Shown here piece after piece: positions 6,393 to 46,299 of a DNA stretch of 64,000 bases. The stretch comes from Isoptericola jiangsuensis. GTDB lineage: Bacteria > Actinomycetota > Actinomycetes > Actinomycetales > Cellulomonadaceae. The number at the start of each line of letters is the position of its first letter. The stretch's first letter is position 1. Position numbers and translations under genes: made by a program. The DNA lies in NCBI RefSeq assembly GCF_002563715.1, contig NZ_PDJJ01000001.1:62001-126000 (forward strand), in the 5' to 3' direction. Below the pieces are notes generated by a model. It saw only the letters and a list, made by a program, of their open reading frames with translations, was not told where the DNA came from and did not search any database.

Positions 6393-6395
6393 TCC

Positions 6396-6438
6396 ACGAC
6401 GAGAGCCCCCGTCCTCAACGGACGGGGGCTCTCGTCGT
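6396..6438 (+). terminator. Terminator after tRNA-Ala (copy 1 of a duplicated hairpin)
   Basis: A perfect 19-bp stem (left arm 6396-6414, loop TCAAC, right arm 6420-6438) ends the tRNA transcript. Its right arm GGACGGGGGCTCTCGTCGT is repeated exactly at 7379-7397 after the next gene. Confidence 0.88.
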
Positions 6439-6480
6439 GTTGGAAGCACTTCAGTAGCCGAGTAAAGGCACCTTGAGAAC

Positions 6481-7357: not shown

Positions 7358-7394
7358 ACGAGAGCCCCCGTCCGGTGAGGACGGGGGCTCTCGT
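7358..7394. terminator. Bidirectional terminator (copy 2 of the duplicated hairpin)
   Basis: A 16-bp perfect stem (arms 7358-7373 and 7379-7394, loop GGTGA) sits between the convergent lipoprotein gene and the 7413-8234 gene. The stem is identical to that at 6399-6435; only the five loop bases differ. Confidence 0.85.
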
Positions 7395-12658: not shown

Positions 12659-12705
12659 ACGGAGCCCCGCCGCCGACACTCTCCGTGTCGGCGGCGGGGC
12701 TCCGT
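12659..12705. terminator. Bidirectional terminator between trpG-like and pknB genes
   Basis: A perfect 21-bp stem (12659-12679 with 12685-12705, loop TCTCC) lies between the convergent genes. Confidence 0.9.
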
Positions 12706-43477: not shown

Positions 43478-43517
43478 CGGAGCCCCGGCCGGTCCCCACG
43501 GACCGGCCGGGGCTCCG
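43478..43517. terminator. Terminator after the multidomain pectate lyase
   Basis: An 18-bp perfect stem (43478-43495 with 43500-43517, loop CCAC) is shared by the convergent gene ending at 43546. Confidence 0.88.
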
Positions 43518-44187: not shown

Positions 44188-44574
44188 TCAGCCGAGCGCG
44201 TCGAGGGCGGCGCGCAGCCGCACGCCGGCGTCCTGCGCGACGGCGGCCAGCTCGGGGCTGTCGGCGACGGACATCATGGCGTGCGGGTCGACGGCCTCGA
44301 CGACGGTGGCCCCGTCCGCCTCACGGACGACGACGTTGCAGGGCAGCAGCGCACCGACGGACGGGTCGGCCTGGAGGGCCCGGTGCGCGAGCGGGGGGTT
44401 GCAGGCGCCGAGCACGAGGTAGGGCGGCAGGTCGACGCCGAGCTTGGTGCGCAGGGTGGCGGCCATGTCGATCTCGGTGAGGACGCCGAACCCCTGCTCG
44501 GCGAGCGCGGCGCGGACGGCGTCGACGGTGTCGGCGAACGGGGTGGTCAGGGTGGTGCTGAGCGTGTAGGTCAC
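44188..44574 (-). CDS. DUF302 family protein
   Basis: This 128-residue cytoplasmic protein has the DUF302 core: FADTVDAVRAALAEQGFGVLTEIDM, then LGACNPPLAHRALQADPSVGALLPCNVVV. DUF302 proteins often sit near metal or redox stress genes, and the conserved Cys residues in ACNPP and LPCNV may bind a metal or thiol. Biochemical role is unknown. GTG 44574 has GAGGAG five bases upstream. The upstream membrane gene and a copper-type palindrome suggest one metal-responsive operon. Confidence 0.82.
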   Translation of the reverse strand: MTYTLSTTLTTPFADTVDAVRAALAEQGFGVLTEIDMAATLRTKLGVDLPPYLVLGACNPPLAHRALQADPSVGALLPCNVVVREADGATVVEAVDPHAMMSVADSPELAAVAQDAGVRLRAALDALG

Positions 44575-44597
44575 GGGTCTCCTCGGGTCGTGGGTGG

Positions 44598-44981
44598 TCA
44601 GACGGGGCAGGCCGCGGCGGCGGCAGGCCGGCGCTGGTAGAGGCCGATCGCGGTGGCGACGACGGCGACCAGCGCCATGGAGGCGGAGCCCGGTGCGGAC
44701 GTCAGGAGCAGGACGGGCGCGACGACGGTCGCGCCGGCGACGACGTCGCAGGGTCCGCAGCCGAGGACGCTGCGCCAGGTGTGGCCGGCCGGGGGCACCC
44801 ACGTGGCGACGGTGGCGGCGCCGAGGGCGGCGCTGACGGCGAGGAGCACGGTGGTGACCGGGTGGCCCGGACCGCCCGCGGCCGTGACGTACCAGGCGAG
44901 CAGCAGGGGGAGGGCGAGGGCGCCGACGGCGAGGCGTCGGCGGCTGCGGGGGCGTCGGACGGTGGCGGGCGGGACGGTCAT
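44598..44981 (-). CDS. Small membrane protein with CGPC motif
   Basis: This 127-residue protein has about four membrane helices after a basic N-terminus (VRRPRSRRRL). CGPCDVV in the middle is a thioredoxin-like CxxC pair within or next to the membrane. It is not recognised as a known family. GGAGGAG lies upstream of ATG 44981, and the DUF302 gene follows after 23 bases. A role in metal or thiol handling is inferred from the operator and neighbour. Confidence 0.65.
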   Translation of the reverse strand: MTVPPATVRRPRSRRRLAVGALALPLLLAWYVTAAGGPGHPVTTVLLAVSAALGAATVATWVPPAGHTWRSVLGCGPCDVVAGATVVAPVLLLTSAPGSASMALVAVVATAIGLYQRRPAAAAACPV

Positions 44982-45032
44982 GCGGGGTGCTCCTCCGCGA
45001 GGCCGGGGTGGGTGCGGCGGCCTCGTTCCCCC

Positions 45033-45058
45033 ACCGTATACCCCCCTGGGTATACGGT
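45033..45058. promoter_or_regulatory. CsoR-type (copper) operator
   Basis: ACCGTATACCC and GGGTATACGGT are perfect 11-base inverted arms around CCCT, giving the core TATACCCCCCTGGGTATA. This matches the known pattern of CsoR/RcnR-like (DUF156) repressor sites. It lies 52 bases before the membrane/DUF302 genes on one side and 80 bases before the DUF6328 gene on the other. No csoR gene is in the window. Confidence 0.65.
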
Positions 45059-45137
45059 CCAGACGGGCGGCCACCACCCCTCGCCCCCTCGCCCCCCGTC
45101 CGCCACCATGGACCGCAGGGACGACGAAGGAGGTGCG

Positions 45138-45635
45138 GTGAGCGACGACGCCACCGGGGCGCTCGCGGGCGGCGTCGGGCACGGCCGGCCCGAGACGCCC
45201 GAGCAGCGGTCCGACCGCAACTGGAACGAGCTGCTCCAGGAGCTGCGCGTGCTCCAGACCGGCGTGCAGATCCTCACCGGGTTCCTGCTGATCCTGCCGT
45301 TCCAGTCGACGTTCTCCGGCCTCGACCGGTACCAGGTCGCCGTCTACCTGGCGGACGTGCTCGTCGCGATCACCGCCACCGGCCTGTTCATCGCGCCCGT
45401 CGCGCTCCACCGCGCGCTGTTCCGGGAGCACCGCAAGCCGTCGGTGGTCACCGGCGGGGACCGCCTCACCCGGGTCGGGCTCGTGTTCCTCGCCGCGTCG
45501 CTGTCCGCGACCGCCCTGCTGGTGTTCGACGTCGTCGTGGGGCGCGTCGCGGGGTGGGTGGTCGGCGGGAGCGTCGCCGTGCTGCTCCTCGGGCTGTGGG
45601 AGATCATGCCGCTCGCGGTGCGGCGGCGCGGCTGA
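45138..45635 (+). CDS. DUF6328 family membrane protein
   Basis: This 165-residue protein has an N-terminal RNWNELLQELRVLQTGVQILTGF segment typical of the family, then four membrane helices. Function is unknown. GTG 45138 follows AAGGAGG at 45127-45133; an in-frame ATG at 45108 has no ribosome site. It may be co-regulated by the CsoR-type palindrome upstream. Its last 32 bases overlap the convergent gene at 45604. Confidence 0.8.
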   Translation: MSDDATGALAGGVGHGRPETPEQRSDRNWNELLQELRVLQTGVQILTGFLLILPFQSTFSGLDRYQVAVYLADVLVAITATGLFIAPVALHRALFREHRKPSVVTGGDRLTRVGLVFLAASLSATALLVFDVVVGRVAGWVVGGSVAVLLLGLWEIMPLAVRRRG

Positions 45636-46299
45636 GACCGCGGCGGCGCAACCACAGCTCGGCGACGACGAGGTTCGGCACCCAGCACCCGAACGGCACG
45701 AGCGCGTACGCGCGGTCGAACGCCGCCGCCGGGTCGACGTCGAGCAGCATCACCTGACCGCCGACCAGCAGGCCCGTCCACAGGCGCAGGGTCACGGCGG
45801 CGAACGTGAGCGCGAACGTGCGGGTCATCCACCGCCGGTGCGCGGCGACGTCGCCCGCCCGGATCGCGCGGAAGCCCTGCCAGGCCGTCCACACCCACGC
45901 GGCCCCGAGGAGCCCGAACCCCGCGGTGCCGATCGGACCGGCGTGGTTGAACGGCGCGAGCACGATCCCCGCGGTCCCGGCGACGAGGATCGCCGCCACG
46001 GTGACCCGGCCCGCCCACCGGTGCACGGCGGGCACCCGGCGTCGCAGCCCGGGCCAGAGCTGCACCGGCGACAGCAGGAGCGCGACGCCCCCGGCCACGA
46101 CGTGCGTGAGGAGGACGCCCCGGACCACCGCCGGGCGGGCGGCGTACCCCGCGGCGAGCCCGACGTCGTCCGCGGCGAGGGTGTCCAGGGAGGCCGTGAG
46201 GTAGGGCGTGACGGCCACGGCCGCGACCGTCACGCACAGCAGGGTGAGGACGCTCAGGCTCCACGGGTGGCGCGACCTCGTCGTCGTCGGTGCGGTCAT
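45604..46299 (-). CDS. DUF2306 family membrane protein
   Basis: This 231-residue protein has seven or so membrane helices. HVVAGGVALLLSPVQLWPGLRRRVPAVHRWAGRV and HRRWMTRTFALTFAAVTLRLW are typical of DUF2306, which has conserved His residues resembling haem-binding membrane cytochromes. Role is unknown. ATG 46299 was chosen to match the first helix. Its 3' end overlaps the DUF6328 gene by 32 bases on the opposite strand. Confidence 0.8.
   Translation of the reverse strand: MTAPTTTRSRHPWSLSVLTLLCVTVAAVAVTPYLTASLDTLAADDVGLAAGYAARPAVVRGVLLTHVVAGGVALLLSPVQLWPGLRRRVPAVHRWAGRVTVAAILVAGTAGIVLAPFNHAGPIGTAGFGLLGAAWVWTAWQGFRAIRAGDVAAHRRWMTRTFALTFAAVTLRLWTGLLVGGQVMLLDVDPAAAFDRAYALVPFGCWVPNLVVAELWLRRRGLSRAAAPRAA

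Follow-up and report, generated by a model that had tools for sequence, protein, structure and literature searches.

A palindrome upstream of CGPC and DUF302 genes in Isoptericola jiangsuensis is probably an operator of a CstR-type persulfide regulon

We analyzed a 64,000-nucleotide stretch of the Isoptericola jiangsuensis genome (the window) in which a perfect palindrome separates two divergent units, and asked which regulator reads the palindrome and which of its neighbors it serves. The inverted repeat, ACCGTATACCC-CCCT-GGGTATACGGT (positions 45033 to 45058, 11+4+11), is a candidate operator whose core, ATACCCCCCTGGGTAT (positions 45038 to 45053), has the form ATACC-N6-GGTAT. On the minus strand lies a two-gene operon. 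Its first gene (44598 to 44981) encodes a 127-residue orphan membrane protein with a CGPC motif (the CGPC protein) and, after a gap of 23 bp, its second (44188 to 44574) encodes a 128-residue DUF302 protein (Pfam PF03625). On the plus strand, 80 bp from the palindrome, begins the gene for a 165-residue DUF6328 membrane protein (Pfam PF19853; 45138 to 45635). AGGAG-like ribosome sites were seen by eye at the start of all three genes, and scanning the intergenic stretch around the palindrome for promoter and terminator consensus sequences gave no match. The first-pass annotation had described a perfect 11-base inverted repeat of the CsoR-family operator type between divergent units with no known copper part among their products, and these statements held up: the core matches ATACC-N6-GGTAT, and Pfam found no copper exporter, chaperone or csoR among the three proteins. 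It had also read the site as copper type, with persulfide already on its list of stresses, and had counted DUF6328 as a dedicated part of the unit; the copper reading and the place given to DUF6328 did not survive the comparisons described here.

Perfect 11-base repeats are common in GC-rich DNA of this kind, so palindromicity by itself is weak evidence. The window holds 17 entries of such repeats with a short loop, at seven distinct places, and each of 12 simulated first-order windows held 0 to 5; bare palindromicity was dropped as an argument. A search of the window for ATACCCN4GGGTAT with up to two mismatches gave one match (with 0 mismatches) against 0.32 expected, a modest result. The part beyond chance is the genome-wide count: ATACCN6GGTAT has five exact matches in the whole 4.04-Mb genome, and the reversed control has none. 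TACCCN4GGGTA with one mismatch did no better than its control (64 versus 65), and the motif counts use exact matches alone.

The four other N6 sites all precede sulfur genes, judged by domain content, the NCBIfam names being below cut-offs. The site at 220116 lies before the gene for a 562-residue protein with pyridine-nucleotide-disulfide-reductase and rhodanese parts, which is followed by a CsoR-family (cstR) gene. The others stand before a rhodanese with a lipoprotein-like start, before an SQR-like oxidoreductase (with a transporter-like gene diverging on the opposite side), and before the gene for a metallo-beta-lactamase-rhodanese protein, behind which comes one for a TauE/SafE exporter. 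For these genes the more specific names CoA-disulfide reductase, SQR and persulfide dioxygenase are putative: the top NCBIfam models for the first two names, CoA-disulfide reductase and type III sulfide quinone reductase, scored below cut-off, and no NCBIfam model fitted the third name well.

The genome has two CsoR-family genes. One (3799826) encodes a protein with the C-H-C copper ligands, sits with copZ and copA, and carries TACC-N7-GGTA in its promoter. The plain pattern TACCN7GGTA occurs three times in the genome and three times in the control, and among the three genome matches only that of csoR has CCC/GGG arms. The other gene (G000:C1:218131-218367) encodes a CstR-type protein with two cysteines 29 residues apart (C-x28-C) and no histidine at the copper position. 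This gene stands behind one of the five N6 sites, 111 kb from the CGPC-DUF302 unit.

We surveyed operator spacing at 91 CsoR-family matches from 59 genomes of the order, classed by their residues (as 92 stretches, since a gene of L178 fell into two), with flanks of 1.5 kb per side for 29 matches and about 2.5 kb or more for the rest, where the contig allowed. Among 50 C-H-C genes, 34 had an N7 site no more than 400 bp upstream, none had N6 nearby and 15 had neither. Among 38 C-x-C genes, 30 had N6 within 2.5 kb (14 of the 38 no more than 400 bp upstream), 1 had N7, 2 had N5 and 6 had none of these; in L147, a C-x-C gene has N7 directly upstream and N6 1.6 kb off. The four genes of the remaining class included one with N6 and one with N7. 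The contrasts between C-H-C and C-x-C spacing gave Fisher values of 1.6e-16 and 7e-11. The narrower windows of 29 C-H-C genes favor the CstR reading, and we therefore compared wide windows of equal size alone: N6 occurred in 0 of 21 C-H-C stretches versus 30 of 38 C-x-C stretches. The 8 of 38 C-x-C genes without N6 within 2.5 kb count against the CstR reading, as do the N7 site directly upstream in L147, the equal number of plain N7 matches in genome and control, the divergent transporter-like gene at the SQR-like site and the 111 kb between cstR and the unit studied here.

Published sites fit this division in part. The CsoR-like sulfane-sulfur sensor of Streptomyces coelicolor (sco0620) is reported in the accessible text to bind ATACCn6GGTAT (PMC7533328), and the copper CsoR consensus of S. 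lividans, ATATACCCCTNAGGGGTATAT, has N7 spacing (PMC3902906). In the figure behind the TACX9GTA motif of the latter paper there is also a Staphylococcus aureus site, which in the accessible text could be either a copper or a CstR site (PMC3902906); for this reason we claim the spacing rule for the searched order alone, and outside it the rule may fail to hold. A search of the accessible literature found no published statement of a one-base N6/N7 rule. If true, the one-base spacer would let copper operators be distinguished simply from persulfide operators in these genomes. Both kinds readily receive a copper label there, and this site was an example.

The palindrome is thus most likely the operator of a CstR-type repressor and one of five sites of a persulfide or sulfane-sulfur regulon, with the DUF302 and CGPC proteins as its working parts. 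This interpretation, made at the level of sequence, follows from the fit of the site to the published sulfane-sulfur sensor operator (PMC7533328), from the sulfur genes behind the other four N6 sites, and from the N7 spacing of the genome's own csoR site. We infer that the CstR-type protein binds the palindrome and that persulfide induces the unit.

The DUF302 protein matched PF03625 with an E value of 2.9e-28 (98 bits against a cut-off of 23). Its structure model has the fold of the solved members, with Foldseek matches in the PDB to 1j3m (E = 8.1e-15) and 1q9u (E = 8.4e-11); two DUF302 structures were solved in 2004. At E values up to 0.001, the search returned five chains, these two and three chains of Brucella 7tj1. 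The 7tj1 entry was deposited as the putative fluoride transporter CrcB, and 126 of its columns align with the DUF302 model at TM-scores of 0.65 to 0.67. The NCBIfam CrcB model NF002454 matches the DUF302 protein weakly through the C-terminal part of the model, and the CrcB label of 7tj1 is possibly a naming error stemming from a fused protein. The two cysteines of the DUF302 protein, Cys58 (GACNP) and Cys79 (LLPCN), are kept in 44 of 45 DUF302 sequences, the exception (L047) being a partial match, and are present in both 1j3m and 1q9u. This near-invariant pair makes a direct biochemical test possible.

DUF302 genes were found in 13 of the 59 genomes of the order, at 14 loci, and in 60 of 197 genomes of the class, from which the 28 best-scoring further loci were read; matches also occurred in Thermus and archaea among the control genomes. 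An N6 site lay within about 1.5 kb at 8 of the 14 loci of the order and at 19 of the 28 best-scoring loci of the class, 27 of 42 in total, and N7 lay at none of the 42. A CsoR-family gene adjoined DUF302 at 5 of the 14 and 17 of the 28 loci, always of the C-x-C class. Two arrangements recurred, thioredoxin-DUF302-cstR and cstR-DUF302, and in some cases a dioxygenase-type or rhodanese gene was divergent from them. Through operators and neighbors, DUF302, a family with no assigned function, is thus linked in 27 of 42 loci to CstR-type control. At the other 15, no N6 was found within about 1.5 kb. Six of these were read again with longer flanks, contig permitting: in four, the sulfur queries used matched nothing, one had N6 about 2 kb off before a CoA-disulfide-reductase-like gene, and one is close to a copper-ATPase-like gene. 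Some DUF302 genes therefore fall outside the CstR-controlled kind.

The CGPC protein has three cysteines of interest, Cys75 and Cys78 in the CGPC motif and the C-terminal Cys125, which are conserved in 8, 10 and 9 of 10 aligned sequences, respectively. Hydropathy and a structure model of low confidence (mean pLDDT of 52) indicated four helices, and by the positive-inside rule both ends and the CGPC loop are predicted to be cytoplasmic. No Pfam family covers the protein (best E = 0.5, below cut-off), and a search of the PDB with a CGPC profile gave one chance match (E = 0.61). Profile searches assigned it to no Pfam or NCBIfam family. A YgaP-like identity (PF11127) was rejected, with no match at E values up to 1 and none for the L026 and L032 relatives at E values up to 0.1.

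Relatives of the CGPC protein occur in 11 of 149 genomes of the order, I. jiangsuensis included, the last (L033) being doubtful. N6 was present at 9 of these 11 loci and N7 at none, and at the other 2 no N6 was found within about 1.5 kb. The site lies upstream of the CGPC gene in seven loci and just downstream in two (L027 and L030), where it precedes thioredoxin-DUF302-cstR or DUF302-cstR genes. DUF302 adjoins the CGPC gene in 5 of the 11, again counting the locus studied here. In L190, from the same genome as L028, the CGPC gene stands in a cluster of rhodanese, TauE, metallo-beta-lactamase/rhodanese (dioxygenase-type) and SQR-like genes with three N6 sites. A scan of 296 genomes of the class, which scored 14 candidates per genome among the rows listed and was not exhaustive, gave at least four matches to the CGPC profile outside the order (E values of 6.5e-5 to 9.4e-4); in two of these the match ran through a stop codon. 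One relative is in Paraoerskovia marina, an actinobacterium. A longer membrane-type protein of G001 (L085:1366-1923, plus strand) with the motif GCPVCNK matched the CGPC profile weakly; its gene is near a TauE-type gene (65% identity to the TauE of I. jiangsuensis), in a locus with neither N6 nor N7.

How might the unit work under a CstR-type repressor? At low sulfane sulfur, the repressor would block the CGPC-DUF302 operon. When persulfide builds up, both CstR cysteines would be modified, a mode of release shown for a relative (PMC7533328, accessible text), and the operon would be freed, as would the CoA-disulfide-reductase-like/rhodanese, rhodanese, SQR-like and metallo-beta-lactamase-rhodanese/TauE genes. 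The DUF302 protein, presumably cytosolic, would take up sulfane sulfur on Cys58 and Cys79, either as a sulfur carrier or as a persulfide reductase serviced by thioredoxin, whose gene is an operon neighbor of DUF302 in several relatives. On the inner side of the membrane, the CGPC protein would pass on sulfur or electrons. We hold only tentatively the fuller proposal that the two proteins form a two-part sulfane-sulfur relay and that a one-base spacer separates copper from persulfide operators here. In such a relay, DUF302 would hand the persulfide sulfur it collects to the cytoplasmic cysteines of the CGPC protein, which would get rid of that sulfur, or of its electrons, at the membrane, and the pair would form a persulfide-clearance branch beside the SQR-dioxygenase route. 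Independently of the relay, the probable operator places two proteins with no assigned function, one small with two cysteines and the other in the membrane with cysteines of its own, in the response of this bacterium to excess sulfur.

That DUF302 is instead a sulfur-oxidation enzyme, acting for example on polythionates, is unlikely. In several chemolithotrophs, DUF302 genes lie within sox clusters, and the accessible part of the report on them proposes that DUF302 contributes to trithionate oxidation (PMC5037610). However, no export signal was seen by eye in the DUF302 protein, and its neighbors in the loci read here are frequently thioredoxin, rhodanese and CstR-type genes. The sox clusters and the SUL module described below mean that a sulfur link of DUF302 is already in print. 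We found no statement that places DUF302 under a CstR-type operator in the literature searched, part of which was available as partial text; in two papers that mention DUF302 (PMC6515984 and PMC6424457), "CsoR" is an author name and not the regulator.

DUF6328 is the remaining neighbor of the palindrome, and its product matched PF19853 with an E value of 4.3e-57 (192.6 bits against a cut-off of 26.3). We consider it quite unlikely that this protein fully belongs to the persulfide unit and is purposely controlled from the palindrome, even with its gene starting so near the site and with the arrangement retained in one congener (G044; L024 and L055). DUF6328 is present in 29 of the 59 genomes of the order, and 27 of these 29 loci, including those of congeners G008 and G027, have no N6 within about 1.5 kb. 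Since both loci with N6 lie beside a CGPC-DUF302 pair, DUF6328 probably shares the intergenic region as a bystander, and we rejected it as a dedicated member. The difference in N6 between DUF302 and DUF6328 loci (Fisher p = 6.5e-7) serves as a guide, since related genomes are not independent. In G027 (L053), DUF6328 keeps a DUF2306-type neighbor (62% identity) in a genome with no DUF302 or CGPC match. In the window, the DUF2306 membrane protein gene (45604 to 46299, minus strand) converges on DUF6328 with a slight overlap. No mention of DUF6328 was found in the accessible literature.

Dual control, with CsoR and CstR both binding the site and with copper and persulfide both inducing the unit, appears distinctly improbable. 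The copper-type and CstR-type sites seen here differ mainly by one base of spacing, and cross-talk between the two regulators would be plausible; against this, the Thermus proteins TtCsoR and TTHA1953 bound each other's site little or not at all, and adding or removing one spacer base weakened TTHA1953 binding about 10- to 15-fold, according to the accessible text (PMC10318464). A CsoR-bound operator released by copper(I), with DUF302 and the CGPC protein handling copper, is highly improbable: CsoR and CstR operators are closely alike, the genome has a csoR-copZ-copA locus, the cysteine pairs could bind copper(I), and one DUF302 gene elsewhere is near a copper-ATPase-like gene, but we rejected a copper operator on the N6 spacing of the palindrome, which differs from the TACC-N7-GGTA of the copper regulon and of the genome's own csoR and was near none of the 50 copper-type genes, and on the sulfur genes that share its motif.

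The CstR-type circuit proposed here most resembles that of sco0620 in S. coelicolor, which has the same 16-bp ATACCn6GGTAT operator, a two-cysteine CsoR-family repressor, and persulfide dioxygenase, rhodanese and sulfite-transporter targets (PMC7533328, accessible text). It differs in that sco0620 sits with its targets, whereas the unit studied here is a satellite far from cstR that consists of DUF302 and an orphan membrane protein. In Enterococcus faecalis, the CstR of a cst-like operon regulates a CoA-persulfide reductase (CoAPR) with a C-terminal rhodanese, which resembles the 562-residue protein at 220116; unlike here, no DUF302 or CGPC protein is mentioned in the accessible text (PMC9405070). 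The SUL module of Arthrobacter plasmids clusters a CsoR-family regulator, a sulfur dioxygenase, two rhodaneses, TauE/SafE and DUF302; its description, in the part available, gives neither an operator nor the type of the regulator and names no CGPC protein (PMC6305408). The csoR-copZ-copA operon of I. jiangsuensis and the S. lividans CsoR system share the repressor family and half-sites with the palindrome but differ in a spacer one base longer (N7, TACX9GTA), C-H-C ligands and copper targets (PMC3902906, accessible text).

Several further features were seen near the other N6 sites and in the window. Across from the CoA-disulfide-reductase-like/cstR operon, beyond its N6 site, lies the gene for a small zf-UBP zinc-finger protein (L018:10189-10542, minus strand). 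Behind another N6 site, the metallo-beta-lactamase-rhodanese and TauE genes are followed by a GGDEF (diguanylate cyclase) gene (L022:2235-3617, minus strand; near 3300919), a hint that persulfide may be connected with cyclic di-GMP. Long perfect hairpins, possibly transcription terminators, occur in the window at 6395 to 6439, 7358 to 7394, 12659 to 12705 and 43478 to 43517, the first two having the common arm ACGAGAGCCCCCGTCC.
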